64,000 nucleotides of DNA from an uncultured Clostridia bacterium (GTDB lineage: Bacteria; Bacillota; Clostridia; Oscillospirales; Acutalibacteraceae): positions 310,001 through 374,000 of the forward strand of contig CANQFC010000001.1 of NCBI GenBank assembly GCA_947598155.1, given 5' to 3'. Below are positions 44,014-55,574 of the stretch, in pieces. The first letter of the stretch is position 1. Each line of letters begins with the position of its first letter. A program made the translations under genes and the position numbers. The notes below the pieces were generated by a model that worked only from the letters and a program-made list of their open reading frames with translations, ran no database searches and was not told the origin of the DNA.

Positions 44014-46023
44014 GTGGTAAATATGTTAAAATTTGTATCTGCCGGTAACGGCATTGACATTCAAAGGGACGGCAAAAACATTTTTTCACTGCGCCCCGGC
44101 GGGCAATATGTGTGCGTCGGATTCGGTGAAAACGAATACAAAATGAAACACGGAAGTTTTAAAATTAAGGAAACCGCCTCCAAGCCCGTTCCCGTAGAAA
44201 TTCTCTCTGTCGAATTATCGGAAAACGGCAAAGCAGTAGCAAGGTCGGGCGAGGGTATGTTCACGCTCACCTTGACAAATGAAAACCATATTGACGTTCA
44301 TATTGACGGCTTTGAACGGTACAACAGGCTTTACATAAAGCTCCCGGCGGAAAAAGACGAGCATGTTTATGGCACGGGCGAAATATTTACTGAATTTGAC
44401 TTGCGCGGTCAAAAGATAAATTGCTGGGTGGCAGAGCATATAAACGCCCTTCAGGTGGGCAAAAAGCTTGTAAAACAGATTTTCGGAATAAAAAATACCA
44501 CCCGCAGGAAAAATATTTCAAATTATGAAACGTATTACGCTCAGCCCACTTTTTTGAGCTCTAAAAAGTATTATTTTCACTCATTTGCCTTGGCGCGCTC
44601 GGAATTTGATTTTAGAAACGAAAGCGCGCATTTAATAAAAATTGATGAAATTGCCGATTTTTGTCTCGGATTCGGCAATACTTTTGAAGAAACGATGTTT
44701 GATTTGTCCGAAACATTGGGCAGACAGCCCCTTCTTCCCGATTGGGTCTATAACGGTGAGATTCTCGGAATACAAGGCGGTACGGATATAATGATGCAAA
44801 AGACTGAAACCGCGTTAAATCACAACACTGCGGTGAGCGGCGTTTGGATTCAGGATTGGGAGGGCAGGCGCGTAACGGCCGTCGGAAAACAGCTTTACTG
44901 GAATTGGGAGGTCGATGGCGAACTGTACTTTGACCTTGCTCAGAAGATTAAGGAGTTAAATGAGAAGAATATAAAAGTGCTCGGCTATTGCAATACGTTT
45001 TTGGCTGTTGAAAAGCCGCTTTACAAAGAGGCAAGCGAGAAAGGCTATTGCGTAAAAAATAAAGAGGGAACGGATTATTACGTTACTATTACTACTTTTC
45101 CCGCCGCAATAGTGGACCTTACAAATCCCGACGCGGTCAGGTGGCTCAAAAATATTATAAAGAAAAATATGATTGATTTGGGCTTTTCGGGCTGGATGGC
45201 GGATTTCGGAGAATATCTTCCGACCGATTCCGTGCTTTTCAGCGGCGAGGACGCTCAGCTCGTTCACAATACTTGGCCCGCGCTTTGGGCAAAGCTTAAC
45301 CGCGAAGCGGTTGAAGAAGCCGGCAAATTAGGTGAAATAATGTTTTTTACAAGGGCAGGGTACAGCGAAACGCCGAAATACTCCACTATGATGTGGAACG
45401 GCGATAATCACGTTGACTATTCGGTAGATTACGGTCTCCCGTCCGTTATACCGGCAATGCTCTCGCTTACTTGCATCGGATTCGGACTTTCACATTCCGA
45501 TATAGGCGGATATACAACCTTTTTCAATTTAAAACGCAGTGAGGAACTGTTTATGCGTTGGTTTGAGATGAACGCATTTTCACCTCTTTTGCGCGGGCAT
45601 GAGGGGTTAAATCCCGATTTAAACGTTCAGTTTGACTCAAGCGAAAGGGTTTTAACCCATGGAGCAAAATTCAGCCGAATACACAAAGCCTTAAAGCCGT
45701 ATCTTAAAGACGCGGTTGCATATAACGCGGAAAAGGGCGTGGGCGCAGTAAGACCGCTGTTCTTTTATTATGATGAAGAAAGAGCGTACACCGAGCGCTA
45801 TGAGTATTTACTCGGCCGCGATATTTTGGTCGCCCCTGTAATAAGGGCTAAAGCTGTTTCGCGTAAAGTATATCTGCCTAACGATGTATGGGTTCATTTA
45901 TGGTCAGGCCGCGAATACGGCGGCGGTGAATATGAAATCCCCGCGCCGATAGGCGAAATACCCGTGTTTATAAGAAAAGAAAGCTACTTTAAAGAATCGT
46001 TTTTAAATCTTAAAAAGGAGTAA
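44014..46023 (+). CDS. GH31 glycosidase, probable sulfoquinovosidase (YihQ/SQase-like)
   Basis: GVWIQDWEGRRVTAVGKQLYWNWEVD, LGFSGWMADFGEYLP (nucleophile), TRAGYSETPKYSTMMWNGDNHVD (acid/base region), SHSDIGGYTT; context with sulfoglycolysis-type genes. Confidence 0.8.
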   Translation: MVNMLKFVSAGNGIDIQRDGKNIFSLRPGGQYVCVGFGENEYKMKHGSFKIKETASKPVPVEILSVELSENGKAVARSGEGMFTLTLTNENHIDVHIDGFERYNRLYIKLPAEKDEHVYGTGEIFTEFDLRGQKINCWVAEHINALQVGKKLVKQIFGIKNTTRRKNISNYETYYAQPTFLSSKKYYFHSFALARSEFDFRNESAHLIKIDEIADFCLGFGNTFEETMFDLSETLGRQPLLPDWVYNGEILGIQGGTDIMMQKTETALNHNTAVSGVWIQDWEGRRVTAVGKQLYWNWEVDGELYFDLAQKIKELNEKNIKVLGYCNTFLAVEKPLYKEASEKGYCVKNKEGTDYYVTITTFPAAIVDLTNPDAVRWLKNIIKKNMIDLGFSGWMADFGEYLPTDSVLFSGEDAQLVHNTWPALWAKLNREAVEEAGKLGEIMFFTRAGYSETPKYSTMMWNGDNHVDYSVDYGLPSVIPAMLSLTCIGFGLSHSDIGGYTTFFNLKRSEELFMRWFEMNAFSPLLRGHEGLNPDLNVQFDSSERVLTHGAKFSRIHKALKPYLKDAVAYNAEKGVGAVRPLFFYYDEERAYTERYEYLLGRDILVAPVIRAKAVSRKVYLPNDVWVHLWSGREYGGGEYEIPAPIGEIPVFIRKESYFKESFLNLKKE

Positions 46024-46029
46024 AAATAT

Positions 46030-46716
46030 ATGAAATACTTTTTAGACAGCGCGAAGATTGATGAAATCCGCAAGGCTTACGATACCTTCGGAATTGACGG
46101 AATCACAACAAATCCTAATCATATTATGAATTCCGGCAAGCCGTTTTATAAAGTGATAAGCGAGCTCGCGGATTTTGTAAAAGAAAAAAATATTGAGGGT
46201 TGGGAGAATTTTCCCATATCGGTTGAAATCAATCCGCACATAGAAAATACAAATGAAATGATGGAAATGGCTGAAAAAATTTCATCTGTTTGTAAAAACT
46301 TTGTAATAAAAATTCCCTGCACGCAATCGGGTATCGCCGCCGCGAAACGCCTTGAGCAAAAGGGCGTCAGAACAAATCTTACGCTTGTATTTTCGCCGAC
46401 TCAGGCGCTTATTGCCGCCAAAAACGGTTCGCTTTTCGTCTCTCCGTTTATAGGCTGGAAAGAGAACAGCGGAGAGGACTGCACGCAGTACATTCAGGAT
46501 ATTGTTAATATATATAAAAATTACGGATATTACGGTAAAACTCAGATTATTTGCGCGGCGGTGCGCAACGGCAAGCAAATAACCGACTGCGCGGCGGCAG
46601 GGGCGGATATTGTAACGGCGGGACTTCAGGTGTTCTGCGACAGCTTTTATCATCCGTTTACGGATTACGGGCTTAAAAAGTTTCAGGACGCTTGGGATAA
46701 CACAGTAATTGAATAA
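46030..46716 (+). CDS. Transaldolase/FSA-family aldolase, probable 6-deoxy-6-sulfofructose transaldolase
   Basis: KYFLDSAKIDEI, FVIKIPCT (Schiff-base Lys), GVRTNLTLVFSPTQALIAAKNGSLFVSPFIGW; context. Confidence 0.8.
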   Translation: MKYFLDSAKIDEIRKAYDTFGIDGITTNPNHIMNSGKPFYKVISELADFVKEKNIEGWENFPISVEINPHIENTNEMMEMAEKISSVCKNFVIKIPCTQSGIAAAKRLEQKGVRTNLTLVFSPTQALIAAKNGSLFVSPFIGWKENSGEDCTQYIQDIVNIYKNYGYYGKTQIICAAVRNGKQITDCAAAGADIVTAGLQVFCDSFYHPFTDYGLKKFQDAWDNTVIE

Positions 46717-47587
46717 AGGAGAAATTTTTATGAAAATCGGATTTATAGGTCTTGGCATAATGGGCGAGTCAATGTGTGAGAACATCGTAAAAAAGCATAA
46801 CGATAAGGTATATGTTTCAGACCGCAAAAGAGAGCAGGTTGAAAAGCTCGCGGCAGTCGGCGCGGTACCGTGTGAAAATAATACCGAGGTGGCAAAAAAC
46901 GCCGATATAATCATTACGATGGTGCCAAAATCGGAAAATGTAAAAGAGGTTTACACCGAGATACTGCCTGTAATCGACAGCACTAAAATATGTATTGATA
47001 TGAGTACAATAGACCCCGCGGTTTCGGTTGAATGCGCAAATATGGTAAAAGCAAAGGGCGCTCAGTTCTCCGATTGCCCCGTTGTTAAAAGCAAGCCTGC
47101 CGCCATTGACGGAACGCTGGGCATTTTAATAGGCGCAGACGAAGAGCTTGTTCCCGTGATTCGTCCTGTACTTGAATATATGGGGAGCAACATAAAATAT
47201 ATGGGCGGCAACGGCAGGGGACTTGTTATGAAAATCTGCTCGAACGCAATGGTTGCCGCGGTTCAAAACGGAGTTAACGAAACAATGGCGCTTGCCCAGA
47301 AATGGGGAGTTGAAATTGACGATTACGCCGAGGCAATTTCATACGGCGGCGGTAAGAATTTTTATCTTGAACTTCAAAAGGACAATATAAAAAATGAAAA
47401 TTGGACAACCGCGTTTTCACTTGAAAACGAGCATAAGGATTTGGGCATTTGCGAAAGAATGGCAAAAGAAGTAGGGTTTGAAATGCCTGGTCTGAAGGTT
47501 TGCAAAAGCGTTTATGACAAGGGTATGGATAAAGGTATGGGAAAGCTCGATTTCCGTTCTACCTATAAAATAGTAAAGGGTGAGTAA
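46709..47587 (+). CDS. Beta-hydroxyacid dehydrogenase family, probable sulfolactaldehyde reductase (YihU-like)
   Basis: IGFIGLGIMGESMCENI Rossmann motif, DCPVVKSKPAA, MGGNGRGLVMKICSN; overlaps the transaldolase gene. Confidence 0.78.
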   Translation: MNKGEIFMKIGFIGLGIMGESMCENIVKKHNDKVYVSDRKREQVEKLAAVGAVPCENNTEVAKNADIIITMVPKSENVKEVYTEILPVIDSTKICIDMSTIDPAVSVECANMVKAKGAQFSDCPVVKSKPAAIDGTLGILIGADEELVPVIRPVLEYMGSNIKYMGGNGRGLVMKICSNAMVAAVQNGVNETMALAQKWGVEIDDYAEAISYGGGKNFYLELQKDNIKNENWTTAFSLENEHKDLGICERMAKEVGFEMPGLKVCKSVYDKGMDKGMGKLDFRSTYKIVKGE

Positions 47588-48251
47588 TTTGCTCGAACGG
47601 TTAAACCGTGTAAACGATGTAAAAATATATTCTGTGCTGAGCGGCGAATTTTTGCATTACGGCAGGATTCTTTCGGGCTGTGATTTCAGCGATTTAATTC
47701 AATATTCCGTTGAAAAAACCGAAATTCCCGAAAACGGAAACATTTATGTTCCGTCTGTTCCGGAAATGGAAGAATACCCTGTCTGCGGAACGGTAAAAAA
47801 TACCGTTTTCGGCGGCGGTGAAATTCAGGTCGGCTACTGCAACGGCAAAAACACAACATACAACGGCTTTGAATATCATAAATCTCCCGAAATAAATATA
47901 GCCGTAACGGATTTTATGCTCGTTTTGGGCAAATGTTTTGAAATAGAAAACAACACATATGATATTTCAAGGGCAAAGGTCTTTTTTGTGCCTAAGGGGG
48001 CGGCAGTAGAAATGTTCGGCACAACGCTCCATCTGTCGCCGTGCAGAACAAACGACGAGGGCTTTAAAGACATCGTTATTTTGCCAAAAGGCACAAATAT
48101 GCCTCTTGAAAAAAGGGAAATCACCGACGAAGAGTCAAAATTGCTTTTGTGTAGAAGCAAGTGGGTAATCGCGCACCCGGAGCGCGAACAGCTGATAAGG
48201 CAGGGCGCAGTCGCGGGCGTTATCGGTGAAAACAAAGAATTAAAATACTGA
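47580..48251 (+). CDS. DUF4867-like, possibly cupin-fold protein
   Basis: YHKSPEINIAVTDFMLVLGKCFEI...AKVFFVPKGAAVEMFGTTLHLSPCRTNDEGFKDIVILPKGTN; overlaps upstream gene. Confidence 0.6.
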   Translation: MSNLLERLNRVNDVKIYSVLSGEFLHYGRILSGCDFSDLIQYSVEKTEIPENGNIYVPSVPEMEEYPVCGTVKNTVFGGGEIQVGYCNGKNTTYNGFEYHKSPEINIAVTDFMLVLGKCFEIENNTYDISRAKVFFVPKGAAVEMFGTTLHLSPCRTNDEGFKDIVILPKGTNMPLEKREITDEESKLLLCRSKWVIAHPEREQLIRQGAVAGVIGENKELKY

Positions 48252-48259
48252 GGGAAATT

Positions 48260-49600
48260 ATGAGAAAATTTAATGTAGCTTACGTGCCGATAGGCGTGCC
48301 GACTTTTCACATACCGTCGGCTCAACAGGAATTTGACAAATCGGTTATACTTTTAAAATCACTGACCGATTCCGTCAGCGTGCCGGGCGAAATGCTGTTG
48401 ACTCTTGAAAAATTAAACGGTTTTTTGGACGAAATAAACCCCGATTTAATAGTACTGCAAAATGTAACTTTCGCAAATTCGGCTTATACTGCCGCGGTTT
48501 TGAGAAAATTTAAGTGTCCCGTACTCTTGTGGACGCTCCGCGAACCTGTAATAGACGGCGGACGTTTAAGGCTGAATTCGCTTACCGGCGCGTATTCGGC
48601 GGCAAATACTATAAAACAACTGCGTGACGAGCCTTTACAGTATGTTTACGGTTCTCCCGAAGAAAACGGAGTAAAAACGCAGATAAAAGCTGTGATAAAG
48701 GCGGCTAAATTAAAAAAAGAGCTTGAAAATCTAAATATCGCGTCAATAGGGCACACTCCCGAGGGCTTTGGTTTCGGCAGGGCGCTTGACAACGAACTGC
48801 TCAAAGTGTTCGGAGCGCGTCTTATTTCGATTGAGGCAAGAGAGCTTATTGAAACGGCAAAATCTTATTCGGACAGCGAAATTGAGGAATACTTAAAAGA
48901 CGCCGAAAGCCGCACCGTTGGGCTTGAGAACACTCCCGAGCGGAACAGAAAAGATTTTGCCCGGCTTTACAAGGCGTATGATGAATTTGTGCGCCAAAAC
49001 AATATAGGCGCTCTGTCGTCACGGTGCTGGCCGGATTTCTTTACATCGTTCGGAACGCCCGTTTGCGCCGTACTCGCGATGCTAAACGATTTGGGCGTTG
49101 CCGCCGCGTGTGAGGCGGACGCCTTTGGCGCGCTGTCGATGTATATAGGTATGTATTTTACCGGCAGAGCCGTATTTTTCGGAGACCCCGTGTCGCTGAA
49201 CGAACAAGAGAATACAATAACGTTTTGGCACTGCGGAACGGCCGCGTGCTCTTTGGCAAGAGAGGCGCAAGGCGCCGAAATAGGCGTTCACTGCAACAGA
49301 AAAATCGGACCTACACTTGAATTTGGCTGTAAGCCGTGCGAAAATGTAACGGTTTTCAGAATAGGGAAGGCTCCTAAAGGCGGTTTCAGAGCGTTTATTT
49401 GCGGCGGCGAGGCTCTTGATAAGCCCAAACAGTTTAACGGCACGTCTGTTGTTGTTAAGACCGATAATTCTGCCGAAAATATAGTGAAATCAAGCGTAAA
49501 AGCGGGCTTTGAGCCGCACTTTGCCGTAATTTACGGCGATGTTACGGCAGAAATTTCTGCTCTTTGCGAAATGCTCGGAATTGAAATTTGCGAATACTGA
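48260..49600 (+). CDS. L-fucose/L-arabinose isomerase-like protein, candidate sugar isomerase
   Basis: ALSSRCWPDFFTSFGTPVCAVLAMLNDLGVAAACEADAFGALSMYI and TFWHCGTAACSLA resemble FucI-like isomerase motifs. Confidence 0.7.
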   Translation: MRKFNVAYVPIGVPTFHIPSAQQEFDKSVILLKSLTDSVSVPGEMLLTLEKLNGFLDEINPDLIVLQNVTFANSAYTAAVLRKFKCPVLLWTLREPVIDGGRLRLNSLTGAYSAANTIKQLRDEPLQYVYGSPEENGVKTQIKAVIKAAKLKKELENLNIASIGHTPEGFGFGRALDNELLKVFGARLISIEARELIETAKSYSDSEIEEYLKDAESRTVGLENTPERNRKDFARLYKAYDEFVRQNNIGALSSRCWPDFFTSFGTPVCAVLAMLNDLGVAAACEADAFGALSMYIGMYFTGRAVFFGDPVSLNEQENTITFWHCGTAACSLAREAQGAEIGVHCNRKIGPTLEFGCKPCENVTVFRIGKAPKGGFRAFICGGEALDKPKQFNGTSVVVKTDNSAENIVKSSVKAGFEPHFAVIYGDVTAEISALCEMLGIEICEY

Positions 49601-49606
49601 TGCAAT

Positions 49607-50338
49607 ATGCTTAATAAAATTTTATTTTTAATCGTAGTTTTTTTCTCAAATGTAATTCAGTGTATAACCGGCTTTGCGGGAACAGTGCTCGCAATGCCCT
49701 TTTCCGTAATGCTTGTCGGATTTGACGCGGCAAGACCGATTTTAAACGTACTCGGTCTTTTGGCCTCGGTATTTGTTTTAACCGTAGGATTCCGCTATGT
49801 TGATAAAAGAGAGTTTGTAAAAATAAGCTCCGTTACGGCTGTCGGCATCGTTTTGGGAGTGTTCCTTAAAGATATGCTCTCCTGGTTTGACCGGGCGCTT
49901 TACATAATGCTGGGAATCATTGTTATCGCGTTTGCGGTGATAAACGCCGTTTCTTTCTACTCAAAAAAAGAGCGTAAAAAAACAAATCCGATATTTGAGA
50001 CACTCATACTTATTGCGGCGGGAACAGTGCATGGTATTTTTGTCTGCGGAGGGCCGCTGTTAGTAGCCTACGCCTCGAAAAAATTGCCTGATAAGGAGCG
50101 TTTTCGCTCAACCCTTTCGGCTGTTTGGATTATACTTAACGGAATAATAGCCGTGAGTGACGTGCTGGGCGGCTCGTTTACCGGCGAAACGCTGACTCTT
50201 ACCTTTTGGAGCGTTGCCGCGCTTGCGGCGGCTATGCTCGTCGGCAATCTCATATACAAAAAAATGAGCAGAAAAGCGTTTTTGAATTTAACATACGTTT
50301 TAATGATAATCAGCGGAATCTCTCTTTTGTTAAAGTAG
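49607..50338 (+). CDS. TauE/SafE-family permease, candidate sulfonate exporter
   Basis: ITGFAGTVLAMPFSVML and HGIFVCGGPLLVAYASKKL motifs, multiple TM segments. Confidence 0.8.
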   Translation: MLNKILFLIVVFFSNVIQCITGFAGTVLAMPFSVMLVGFDAARPILNVLGLLASVFVLTVGFRYVDKREFVKISSVTAVGIVLGVFLKDMLSWFDRALYIMLGIIVIAFAVINAVSFYSKKERKKTNPIFETLILIAAGTVHGIFVCGGPLLVAYASKKLPDKERFRSTLSAVWIILNGIIAVSDVLGGSFTGETLTLTFWSVAALAAAMLVGNLIYKKMSRKAFLNLTYVLMIISGISLLLK

Positions 50339-50345
50339 GTGAAAT

Positions 50346-51434
50346 ATGAAAACAGGACTTAATATGCGCTCCGTCAAGACCGAAAACAGAAGTTTGATTT
50401 TACGATTGTTACAGCAGTACGGCGCTTTGAGCCGAAAAGAGCTTGCCGAAAAATCGTCGCTTACGCCCGCCGCGTTGACAATAATTTGCAGTGAGCTAAT
50501 AAGCAAAGGAAAAATACGCGAAACGGGAGAAATCGAAAAAAACGGCAAGGGCAGGAAAGAGATACTTTTGTCTCTTTCCTACGGAGATAAATATGTGCTT
50601 TGCATTAACGCGGAAACAACCCATATTACTTATTCGGTTTGCTCGTTTTCGGGTGAAAAAATCGCGTTAAAGACAGAAAAATTCACAAATAATAACGGCA
50701 TAATACTTGAGCATACAGAAAAATTATTATATTATAATAACATATCGTTAAATAAAATTTGCGCCGCCGGCGTTTGCGTTGTCGGTTCGGTTTCGGGTGA
50801 AAAGTACGGCCTGTGGGACTGCGCAGAGCTTTGCGCCGGGATAGAGAAAAAATATTCCGTTCCCGTAATTGCCGAAAATAATGTCAGAGCGTTTGCCATA
50901 AGCGATATGCTTTACTCGGGCGGGTACGGCTCTGGGCCTGTTTTGTTTTTTAAATGGGGACCGGGCATAGGCTCTGCCGTCGGAGCCGAAGGAGAGATTT
51001 TTTCCGGCAATGACAAAGGCGTTGCGGAGATAGGGCATTACATTGTAAATCCTGCGGGAAAGAAATGCCGCTGCGGCCGCCGCGGCTGTCTTGAAACCGA
51101 GGCCGGCGAAGAGGCTCTTGTTTCACTTACGGGCCGTCCGTTTTCCGATATTATAAACAGCAGCGATAAAAACATTATAAATATTCTCGATGAAAAAATT
51201 GATATTGCCGCGCTGGCTCTTACAAACACTGCAACGATTTTGAACGCGGAAAAAATAGTGCTTTTCGGTTCAGTTTTTCAAAATGAATCCGTTACCGAAA
51301 AGCTGAAGAGGCAGTGCGTAAGATATAACGGCAATATGTCGCTTGATATGATAGTCAAATCAAAATTAAATAAAAAAATAGGGTATTCAGGCCCTGCCGC
51401 AATATGCGCAAAGAAATATTTCTTTGATTCGTAG
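50346..51434 (+). CDS. ROK-family transcriptional regulator (NagC/XylR type)
   Basis: N-terminal wHTH (LLQQYGALSRKELAEKSSLTPAALTIICSELISKG) plus ROK motifs GHYIVNPAGKKCRCGRRGCLETEAG. Confidence 0.9.
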   Translation: MKTGLNMRSVKTENRSLILRLLQQYGALSRKELAEKSSLTPAALTIICSELISKGKIRETGEIEKNGKGRKEILLSLSYGDKYVLCINAETTHITYSVCSFSGEKIALKTEKFTNNNGIILEHTEKLLYYNNISLNKICAAGVCVVGSVSGEKYGLWDCAELCAGIEKKYSVPVIAENNVRAFAISDMLYSGGYGSGPVLFFKWGPGIGSAVGAEGEIFSGNDKGVAEIGHYIVNPAGKKCRCGRRGCLETEAGEEALVSLTGRPFSDIINSSDKNIINILDEKIDIAALALTNTATILNAEKIVLFGSVFQNESVTEKLKRQCVRYNGNMSLDMIVKSKLNKKIGYSGPAAICAKKYFFDS

Positions 51435-51465: not shown

Positions 51466-52896
51466 ATGGAAGAAAAATCTTTAACTCACGGCATCAAACT
51501 CAAAGACCGAGTGGGATACGCCCTCGGCGATACGGCAGGTCTTTTGACCTTTTCGCTTATCGGCGCGTTCCAAAACAAATTTTACACCGACGCTTTGGGG
51601 CTTGACCCTAAAAAAATCGTAGTGCTTATTCTTATAGCGAGAATTTGGGACGCAATTAACGACCCGCTTTGGGGCGCATTCGTTCAGTCGCGTAAGCCTA
51701 ACCCGAAAGGTCAGTTCAGACCGTGGATTTTGGGCTTTTCAATTCCTCTTGCGATTTCTGCGGCGCTTATGTTTTTAAAAATCCCGGGTCTTTCCGAGGG
51801 CAAATATCTTATCTATGCCTATGTTACATATATTCTTTACGGAATGATGTATACGGCGGTAAATATTCCCTATGGTTCGCTTGCCTCCGTCGTTACCGAT
51901 GACGAGCTTGAGCGTTCGTCGCTTTCAATGTGGCGGTCTATCGGCGCAGGCATCGGCGGTCTTCCCGGAACGATTATTCTCCCGATGATTGTTTACACAA
52001 CGACAGGCAAATACGCAAACGGAACGGATATTAAGGCTCTTGACGAAACAAAGCTCTTTTGGTGTGTGCTTATACTGTCCGTAATATCCGTTGCGGTGTA
52101 TTTTGCGCATTACAAGCTCACAAAAGAGCGTATTGCTCCGCAAAAGAGGGAGAGCGGCGAAAAATATAACGCAATGTCAACGCTTAAAGCACTTCTTAAA
52201 AACAGACCGTTTGTAATGCTTTGCTTTGCGTCAATGCTTCTTATAGCGTTCCAGTTCTACTATCAGTCCACCTACACCTATCTGTTTACGGATTATTACG
52301 GTAAGCCGGGGCTTTACGCAATGGTAACAATATGCACTTATGTGCCGATGGCAATCTTTATTCCCGTTATGAACAAGCTAATTGTAAAATTCGGCAAAAA
52401 AGAGCTTTGCGCAGTCGGTATGGTTTTTGCAGCCGTTATAAATATTGTGCTTTTCGCTTTAAGAGGGACTTCCCTTGCGATGAACCCGACCGTATTTCTT
52501 GTGTTCACGTTTTTCTCAGGAATGGGTCAAACCTTCTTGGTGCTTGAGGTTTGGGCTCTTGTTATGGACGTTATTGACTACCACGAGCTCAGAACCGGCA
52601 AAAGGGAAGAGAGTATGGCGTATGCCTTTTTCTCATTTACAAGAAAACTCGGGCAAACTCTTGCGGGCGTTGGGCTTAACATTCTTTTGTCCGCAATTAA
52701 ATATGACGGAGAGCTCTCCAAAAATGGTATTGCCCTGAGTGAAACGGTGCTTTCGCGTCTTTATGACATTTCAACGATTGTACCCGCCGTTATGCTCGCT
52801 TTAATGGCTGTAATTCTATTGTTCGGCTATAATCTTTCCAAAAAGAATCTTGAAGAAATGCATAAACAGCTTGATGCAAAGCGAACGGAGAATTAA
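51466..52896 (+). CDS. MFS sugar:cation symporter, GPH family (MelB/YihO/YihP-like)
   Basis: GYALGDTAGLLTFSLIGAFQNKFYTDALGL, RIWDAINDPLWGAFVQSR, 12 TM-type profile. Confidence 0.85.
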   Translation: MEEKSLTHGIKLKDRVGYALGDTAGLLTFSLIGAFQNKFYTDALGLDPKKIVVLILIARIWDAINDPLWGAFVQSRKPNPKGQFRPWILGFSIPLAISAALMFLKIPGLSEGKYLIYAYVTYILYGMMYTAVNIPYGSLASVVTDDELERSSLSMWRSIGAGIGGLPGTIILPMIVYTTTGKYANGTDIKALDETKLFWCVLILSVISVAVYFAHYKLTKERIAPQKRESGEKYNAMSTLKALLKNRPFVMLCFASMLLIAFQFYYQSTYTYLFTDYYGKPGLYAMVTICTYVPMAIFIPVMNKLIVKFGKKELCAVGMVFAAVINIVLFALRGTSLAMNPTVFLVFTFFSGMGQTFLVLEVWALVMDVIDYHELRTGKREESMAYAFFSFTRKLGQTLAGVGLNILLSAIKYDGELSKNGIALSETVLSRLYDISTIVPAVMLALMAVILLFGYNLSKKNLEEMHKQLDAKRTEN

Positions 52897-52899
52897 ATT

Positions 52900-55395
52900 A
52901 TGAATAAGGTTCATATAGCTTTCGGATTTCATGTCAACTGTTATCACTCTTACCGCGGCGATACGGCGGATAATTTAGGATTTGGCTCTGACATACGCAT
53001 TATACGTAAAATAATAGGCGCGCTTGACGCCCTCAACAGCGAGGGCGTGCCCGTTAAAGGCACTTGGGACTGTGAAAATTTCTTTTCGCTTGAAAAGATT
53101 TTGCCGCAGTTCGCACCCGATATTATTGAGAATATGAAAAGGCGTACAGCGCAAAACGGCGACGAGCAGATTATTATGGGCTATTCAAACGGAGCGCTTG
53201 CCCCTATGACTCAGGAAGAGCTGGAGGCGTCGGTAAATCTTGCCGTTACAAATCCCGAAGGCTCCGGGCTTTTAGACATTTTCGGCAAGTGCGAAATGCT
53301 TGTCCGTCCGCAGGAGGTAATGTTTACCCCATCGCAGGTGCCCGTATATAACAAACTGGGCGTAAAGGCTCTCTGCCTTTATTATTCCTGCGTTCCGTTT
53401 GACGCGTTCCGCACAATAGTTCCCGTATTGCCGGATGAGCTGGCTTTTAATCCGTTGACTTATACTTATAAAGGCGACAGTATAACCGTTCTGCCTACAT
53501 ACAATAACTCTGATATTTGCGACGCAGGCTGTCTGCGCGCGTGGGTCAAGGAGCTTCATAAAAAGCAGGAGTCGGGCGAAATAAAACACGACGTCCTGAT
53601 ATTCGTCAATATGGACGCCGACGCTATCTTTTGGGAAAGTATGAATCTGCCCGTCGTTCGCAATAAAATAGCTAACACAGACGGCATAAACGGACTTGTG
53701 AGAGAAATAGCGGACTTGCCGTTTATTGAGTTCGACACGCCCGGGAATTACATTAAAACGCACGAGGCTTTGGGCAATATTGAATTTACGCAGGACACCG
53801 CAGACGGCAATTTTACAGGCTACGCCTCTTGGGCGGAAAAGCCGTATAACCGCAAAATCTGGACCGCCGTTGACCGTTCAAGGGCTTTGGCAAAGGCGAA
53901 CGGTAAGGACGACAGAAAATCCGCCTCATTCCGAGACAGAGTGCTTTTGCTCTCCACAACGCATTTCGGGCTTGCGACGCCCGTGCTTAATATCCGCCGT
54001 GAGGAAAAGGCCGACGAGCTCGCGCTTTCCGTTGTCAATTCCGAAAAACTCAAGCTGAAAAAATACAAAAAAATTGCCGTATATAACACCGCAAAGAGTA
54101 ATTTTCAGTGCGTTCAGATGTCCGTCAATGAAAAAATCGCCTCTGCCTCTCAAATTGAAATAAGCGGCGCGGGGCTTAAGGATTACACGGTTATTCCGAC
54201 CTCCGGCGACTTATCGTCTGTGTTTGTAATGATGCGTTTTGACGCGATAAAGGACAAATATTTTGTCGAGGCGAAAATCGGCGAATCTAAGAAACCCTCT
54301 AACGAAGATGAGCTTGAGCTTCACGGAAAGGGAATAACGCTTAAATTTTCAAAATACGGCAAGCTGTATAAGGTCATTTACAACAAAAAAGAAATCGGCG
54401 GAACGGATTTTCTTAAAAGCTTTATCACCTTTGACGGCAGGGAGTATGAATTTGAAAACGTAACCTGTGAGGCACTGTCTTTAGGCGGAAACGGAAAGGG
54501 TATTCGCTCAAAGGGTGAAATACATTTGCCGAATGAAAAAGAAAAAGGCGAGTTTACGTTTGATTTTATAGCGGTCGACTACTCAAAAGGTATTTTTGTC
54601 CATACGGATATTAAATATCCGTACACGCCGGAGTATGACTCGATTTCAACGGAAAATTCCTCCTTGGGAAGATATTCCGATATGAAATGGGAGGAGGCCG
54701 TGCCGTTCCAAATCACACCGTCTTTAGACGGCGATATTTCAGTCGTAAAGCGCAACTTTATGGGCGATATTTCCTCTTACAGAACGAAGAGCTTTTCCGA
54801 ATGCGACCCCAAAAACGTCAAATTAGACTCGTTTAACAACCATCTTACGGCAGGTCTTATTGCGCTGACAGACGGGCATACGGGCGTTGCGGTTGCGAAT
54901 GCCCGTAATGTGCTCGGCTCAATGGCTCATTGTCCTATGCGTATGCTTCCCGACGGCAAGGTACAAATGAATCCTTTCGGCACTTATTACGGCAAACAGC
55001 GCCACCATTGGAGCAGAGCCAACGGCGAAATACTTGACACCTATGTATATGTTACTCCTCAAGGCAAGTCGATAGCCCCGGCTTACAACGGCGCGCGCGA
55101 ATGCGCTATGATGGCTCTTTTCGGGTTTGAGGGGGCGGAGCCGACAGGCAAAACGCTTTGCGACATAACGTCTTTTGCCGATGGCGCCGTGGTTTCGTGT
55201 CCGGAAAATTCTGTTTTGGGCGAATATTATCTTGACAACGCTGTGCCGCATAAGCCGGAGGCTCAAAGCGTTGACGAGAAAAAGCTGAAAAATCCGATAG
55301 CCTCAGGTCTTTCCGGCAACCTCGGAAAGTACATTACTCTCGGCTCAAGGGCTGTTTTTCACATTGTCAAGGCGCAAATCAAATCAAGAAAATAA
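52900..55395 (+). CDS. Large putative glycoside hydrolase, GH38/GH57-like fold, function unknown
   Basis: N-terminal GFHVNCYHSYRGDT...GTWDCENFFSLEKILPQ...GYSNGALAPMTQEE plus a long C-terminal beta-rich region; last gene of the operon. Confidence 0.5.
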   Translation: MNKVHIAFGFHVNCYHSYRGDTADNLGFGSDIRIIRKIIGALDALNSEGVPVKGTWDCENFFSLEKILPQFAPDIIENMKRRTAQNGDEQIIMGYSNGALAPMTQEELEASVNLAVTNPEGSGLLDIFGKCEMLVRPQEVMFTPSQVPVYNKLGVKALCLYYSCVPFDAFRTIVPVLPDELAFNPLTYTYKGDSITVLPTYNNSDICDAGCLRAWVKELHKKQESGEIKHDVLIFVNMDADAIFWESMNLPVVRNKIANTDGINGLVREIADLPFIEFDTPGNYIKTHEALGNIEFTQDTADGNFTGYASWAEKPYNRKIWTAVDRSRALAKANGKDDRKSASFRDRVLLLSTTHFGLATPVLNIRREEKADELALSVVNSEKLKLKKYKKIAVYNTAKSNFQCVQMSVNEKIASASQIEISGAGLKDYTVIPTSGDLSSVFVMMRFDAIKDKYFVEAKIGESKKPSNEDELELHGKGITLKFSKYGKLYKVIYNKKEIGGTDFLKSFITFDGREYEFENVTCEALSLGGNGKGIRSKGEIHLPNEKEKGEFTFDFIAVDYSKGIFVHTDIKYPYTPEYDSISTENSSLGRYSDMKWEEAVPFQITPSLDGDISVVKRNFMGDISSYRTKSFSECDPKNVKLDSFNNHLTAGLIALTDGHTGVAVANARNVLGSMAHCPMRMLPDGKVQMNPFGTYYGKQRHHWSRANGEILDTYVYVTPQGKSIAPAYNGARECAMMALFGFEGAEPTGKTLCDITSFADGAVVSCPENSVLGEYYLDNAVPHKPEAQSVDEKKLKNPIASGLSGNLGKYITLGSRAVFHIVKAQIKSRK

Positions 55396-55450
55396 AACAG
55401 CCCGCGCAGACTTCAGTTTAGCGGGGTAACATTCCGCAGTTTCACCGCAA

Positions 55451-55535
55451 ATTCATAAATATACATAAAAATATGAATAAAATTCGCGTAATATTCATTA
55501 TTATGCGGATTTTTTTATAAAATACGAATAAAACT
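55451..55535. promoter_or_regulatory. Candidate ArgR/AhrC-box cluster upstream of argG
   Basis: ATTCATAAATAT, ATGAATAAAATTCG, ATATTCAT and ACGAATAAAA resemble ARG-box half sites. Confidence 0.4.
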
Positions 55536-55545
55536 TAATTTTCTA

Positions 55546-55574
55546 TTGACATTTTATTTCCGATTGGTTATACT
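55546..55574 (+). promoter_or_regulatory. Promoter of argG
   Basis: TTGACA-17-TATACT. Confidence 0.7.

Follow-up and report, generated by a model that had tools for sequence, protein, structure and literature searches.

The 831-residue protein encoded at the end of a sulfoquinovose (SQ) operon in an uncultured Clostridia bacterium, here called X831, belongs to a family that is outside both GH57 and GH38 by sequence, and its linkage to SQ genes is real but optional. We favor, with modest confidence, the reading that X831 is a cytoplasmic retaining alpha-glycosidase or transglycosylase of a new family, acting on an alpha-glycoside imported by a GPH transporter and co-opted into some SQ operons; the terms "alpha" and "retaining" are carried over from existing knowledge of GH57, GH38, and GH31 enzymes, and the cytoplasmic location and the substrate class are inferred.

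The operon and the sequence family

The window, which is the whole 64,000-nucleotide stretch of DNA that was analyzed, carries X831 as the last gene of a sulfo-transaldolase operon in which the upstream genes overlap or are separated by gaps of at most 31 nt (Table 1). The ATG of X831 is preceded by GGAG and the stop codon of the GPH importer lies 3 nt before the gene, which bears out the original prediction that X831 closes the SQ operon. The best NCBIfam match of the SftI-like isomerase is NF048012 (SftI; 5.7e-123, 411 bits), which falls below the cut-off of 700, and an internal ATG near 46730 is the likely start of the SftR-type reductase. The start of argG lies ~0.2 kb downstream of X831, and the interval ahead of it (55450-55574) contains a near-consensus promoter (55546-55574) along with AT-rich repeated motifs that look like ArgR boxes, which suggests that the operon terminates at X831. 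The GPH importer (51466-52896) is only 63% identical to the GPH proteins of the closely related loci L024, L026, and L051, the other operon genes of which are 69-92% identical, and 86% identical to those of L023, L025, and L027; from this mismatch in identity, the transporter seems to have been swapped.

Table 1 Coordinates of the operon genes and of the candidate active-site codons of X831 in the window
Feature	Position	Strand	Basis or remark
GH31 sulfoquinovosidase, YihQ/SftG type	44014..46023	+	NF007746, 768 bits (cut-off 553)
Transaldolase, SftT type	46030..46716	+	PF00923
Sulfolactaldehyde-reductase-like dehydrogenase, SftR type	46709..47587	+	PF03446/PF14833
DUF4867 protein, SftX	47580..48251	+	PF16161; PMC11968277
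SftI-like sulfoquinovose isomerase	48260..49600	+	NF048012 and operon context
TauE/SafE exporter, SftE type	49607..50338	+	PF01925
ROK regulator	50346..51434	+	PF00480, N-terminal HTH
GPH (MelB-type) importer	51466..52896	+	TIGR00792, 307 bits (cut-off 231)
X831	52900..55395	+	831-aa ORF, ATG start; enzyme of an unnamed family with predicted GH57/GH38 fold
His11-Val-Asn13 codons	52930..52938	+	Putative counterpart of GH38 His-x-Asp, Asp to Asn
Glu139 codon, candidate nucleophile	53314..53316	+	VRPQEVMF, right after predicted beta4 (132-136)
Asp239 codon, candidate acid/base	53614..53616	+	NMDADAIFWE, right after predicted beta7 (232-238)
His355 codon	53962..53964	+	STTHFG; putative counterpart of SpGH38 His351; weak hhalign to GH38

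The three motifs that had first drawn attention to the protein were confirmed at residues 9-22, 54-62, and 94-103. Since the motif residues are unchanged in all 76 sequences (the window and 75 relatives) and dN/dS among close relatives is ~0.06, X831 is a real gene rather than a chance ORF. PMC11968277 gives the same core genes for the sft operon of E. rectale, including SftX of unknown role; compared with described sulfo-SFT operons such as this one (available text of PMC11968277 and PMC13219744), the window shares the core and X831 is an extra gene. The claim that no such enzyme occurs in described sulfoglycolysis clusters held for the SQ literature searched, and a search for GH57 or GH38 together with sulfoquinovose returned no paper combining sulfoquinovose with either family. 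Because the operon already encodes a YihQ-type enzyme, no missing sulfoglycolysis step needs X831, which has no sequence match to the GH31 (YihQ) or GH188 sulfoquinovosidases, although a GH31 enzyme may share its operon.

Searches of Pfam, NCBIfam, and PDB sequences with the protein and with a profile of 31 sequences yielded no meaningful match. In the Pfam search, the GH57 profile PF03065 did not match X831 even at E 10 and the GH38 profile PF01074 did not match it at all, and DUF5054, considered as a bridge family, was uninformative, as it gave zero matches, control genomes included. The genome of the window itself (G000) contains three genuine GH38 (PF01074) proteins (C4:137700, C4:38693, and C1:188663), none of them near the SQ operon. 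Relatives of X831 were found as 92 encoding stretches in species genomes, of which 80 were kept, all from Clostridia MAGs and many of these of rumen or hindgut origin. The genome search detected X831 in 21 of 99 relatives; in the wider sets it was present in 7 of 200 genomes of the family and 1 of 392 of the class, this last being the window's own genome. The X831 family is narrow, though its members are numerous.

Predicted fold and candidate active site

The AlphaFold2 model of the full chain (pLDDT 82.7, pTM 0.87) predicts a (beta/alpha)7 barrel at residues ~1-302, a helical region at 303-389, and a beta-sandwich at ~390-708 followed by a variable part; several active-site loops have pLDDT below 50 (16-29, 163-172, 240-243, 303-310, and 356-363). 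The top Foldseek matches of the whole model were all GH38 alpha-mannosidases (3lvt, E 1.3e-20), which cover the model along its length, followed by GH57. A model of the barrel (residues 1-389, 53 sequences, pLDDT 80.3) instead matched GH57 first (4-alpha-glucanotransferase 1k1x, E 2.8e-12), with GH38 from ~4e-8. Identity to the GH38 and GH57 structures among these matches was ~11-14%, and a viral fold library gave no useful match. Given that GH38 leads for the whole chain and GH57 for the barrel, the predicted barrel is GH57-like and the predicted architecture GH38-like; these predictions confirm the initial guess of a GH38/57-like fold and agree with the long beta-rich part expected after the N-terminal domain.

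The X831 profile aligned by hhalign to 29 GH57 sequences with E 3e-4 and a score of 45.5, compared with a maximum of 33.0 in 30 controls whose columns had been shuffled or reversed. Repeating the alignment with nine GH57 anchor sequences gave E <0.001 each time; the GH57 profile probability was only 25-40%. In this alignment, VRPQEVMF with Glu139 falls on the nucleophile motif WLPE, and NMDADAIFWE with Asp239 falls on the acid/base motif. As GH57 enzymes carry a Glu after beta4 and an Asp after beta7 (PMC6037648), a pattern that the profile alignment and predicted secondary structure reproduce in X831, we propose Glu139 as the nucleophile and Asp239 as the acid/base. Ser145, tried as a stand-in for the GH57 nucleophile, was dropped, since the profile alignment puts that position at Glu139. 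X831 further resembles the GH57 enzymes (1k1x of Thermococcus litoralis and the amylopullulanases), its best barrel match, in the helical region behind the barrel; it differs in lacking PF03065, in its ~13% identity, in a His replaced by Asn (Asn97), in its large beta-sandwich, and in its gene contexts. Of the five sequence regions conserved in GH57, those that bear the catalytic pair align with X831, and the His-containing ones differ.

The likeness to the GH38 alpha-mannosidases (SpGH38, 2wyi; E. faecalis, 5kbp) lies in the full-length architecture and length, in His at two metal-ligand positions, and in Asp at the acid/base position. The metal ligands of SpGH38 are His13, Asp15, Asp125, and His351, with Asp125 also serving as nucleophile and Asp232 as acid/base (PMC2815779), and the X831 residues in that order are His11, Asn13, Gln138-Glu139, His355, and Asp239, each of them unchanged in 76 of 76 sequences. 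X831 lacks both a PF01074 match and the GH38 metal site of His-x-Asp, Asp, and His, with His-x-Asn in place of His-x-Asp and Gln138-Glu139 with no Asp nucleophile. Because hhalign to GH38 is weak (probability 0.4-5%), this mapping is inferred mainly from order and motif; with these substitutions, a metal site is possible but would be altered.

These departures raise the possibility that X831 is an inactive or non-hydrolytic relative, such as a pseudo-enzyme, a lectin, or a deacetylase-like protein, as it is missing the Asp nucleophile of GH38 along with one of the Asp metal ligands, a GH57 His position is occupied by Asn97, and ArnD, of the polysaccharide-deacetylase fold, is also among the Foldseek matches. 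We nonetheless regard this as very improbable, because the full acid pair is at the GH57 positions and, together with His11, Asn13, Asp205, Asp208, and His355, is invariant in 76/76 sequences, and conservation along the protein is highest in the barrel.

Linkage to sulfoquinovose genes

The original prediction raised the idea that X831 sets SQ free from a conjugate resistant to the GH31 enzyme, i.e., that it is a dedicated second sulfoquinovosidase, and co-occurrence with transaldolase/SQase clusters was checked accordingly. SQ operon genes flank X831 in ~12 of the 80 loci, several of which end at a contig edge, and they do so in two arrangements: in the first, X831 is at the 3' end behind the GPH gene (the window, L024, L026, L028, L032-L034, L036, L039, and L051), and in the second it precedes GH31 at the 5' end (L090 and L224, which is the counterpart of L090 in the genome collection). 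The spacing between GPH and X831 in most linked loci is at most 10 nt or the genes overlap. Among the 99 relatives, X831 is co-present with an SQase (Fisher p 7e-6); the association arises in part because both are mainly found in one genus, and inside the genus it drops to p 0.046, or 0.19 with strict counts. In G023, G031, G036, and G054, X831 and SftI are both present on separate contigs.

The linkage that would speak for a second sulfoquinovosidase is offset by its many exceptions. At about 60 of the 80 loci, the genes within reach include none of the SQ set, 10 relatives carry X831 without a detected SQase, and the linked copies are scattered over the tree in no single clade. Conversely, no X831 or remnant of it was found behind the GPH gene in the SQ operons of the same layout at L215 and L216, nor in the SQ operons of L217, L211, L212, and L213; the L214 operon stops at the contig end, and that genome is without any X831. 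In G024, a C-terminal X831 remnant of ~100 residues is present (L226, 7284-7574), and the SQ genes are kept on another contig. X831 does not show the conserved linkage expected of a dedicated sulfoglycolysis enzyme.

Comparison of the enzymes and the fate of X831 after loss of the SQ core bear on the same question. Linked and unlinked copies are 74% identical in the barrel and 48% in the beta-sandwich, and the sole column separating the two groups is Lys482, in the beta-sandwich; none of the residues in the catalytic domain separates them, which makes it less likely that linked copies have an active site specific for SQ. At L041, L091, and L223, a GPH-X831 pair occurs without the SQ core. Three species have lost the SQ core and kept an intact set of reductase, importer, and enzyme (SLAR-GPH-X831 at L023, L025, and L027). 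This set sits behind groEL, at the site that the window operon occupies, and no SftI or YihQ-type GH31 was found genome-wide in their counterparts (G009-G011). Among these three loci, X831 has dN ~0.03-0.04, dS ~0.5, and dN/dS ~0.06, indicative of strong purifying selection, and the values for the reductase and GPH are similar; X831 is therefore used without sulfoglycolysis. A dedicated second sulfoquinovosidase is accordingly an improbable reading. Release of SQ from a GH31-resistant conjugate was not supported, and the alternative substrate raised with it, a co-imported glycan, fits better.

GH31 genes make up 11 of 113 genes adjacent to unlinked X831 and 3 of 482 genes further out (Fisher p 1.7e-6, a value that overstates independence because related copies are partly syntenic), they occur in several different arrangements, and the GPH importers near unlinked X831 are mostly within four genes. 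These GH31 proteins were ruled out as SQases, as their scores against the YihQ model were 78-221 bits and the cut-off is 553. At L042, L045, L063, and L095, an operon of AP_endonuc_2 (sugar-isomerase-like), GPH, and a 704-aa protein without a Pfam or PDB match lies near X831, joined in L042 and L095 by a 2-hydroxyacid dehydrogenase. In most unlinked loci, X831 stands alone in varied surroundings, which leaves these loci without an identifiable importer or partner. This, and the occurrence of the SQ operon without X831, could indicate a passenger or general gene behind a strong operon, with a job unrelated to the operon's imported substrate, e.g., turnover of internal alpha-glucan or glycoconjugates. 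We consider such a role unlikely given the tight pairing with GPH in separate lineages, the excess of GH31 genes at positions adjacent to unlinked X831, and the retention of exactly the reductase, importer, and X831 once the SQ core is gone.

Proposed role and implications

As X831 recurs with sugar importers and has no fixed tie to sulfoquinovose, its cleavage target is probably a different alpha-linked sugar that the cell imports. In the mechanism we propose, X831 would represent a glycoside hydrolase family, as yet uncurated, whose catalytic barrel resembles that of GH57 and is set in a GH38-like architecture; the GPH importer encoded alongside would bring in an alpha-linked glycoside, which X831 would process in the cytoplasm with Glu139 serving as the nucleophile and Asp239 as the acid/base, often with a GH31 alpha-glycosidase working beside it. 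The family would not be SQ-specific and would have been joined to the sulfo-transaldolase operon in some gut Clostridia, probably for a glycoside that arrives with sulfoquinovosyl glycerol or through the same importer. A bolder version, which we hold to be a long shot, is that X831 founds a new GH family linking GH57 and GH38 that frees SQ or another sugar, in linked and unlinked species alike, from a plant glycoconjugate beyond the described sulfoquinovosidases.

The X831 family is well conserved in gut and rumen Clostridia and was unrecognized by the protein-family libraries searched. A structure could show how the GH57 and GH38 retaining enzymes relate to one another and could reveal if loss or alteration of the metal site of GH38 is possible. 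For research on sulfoquinovose, the family is a caution that position in an operon does not by itself assign a gene to sulfoglycolysis, and for these bacteria, X831 points to an additional, testable substrate.
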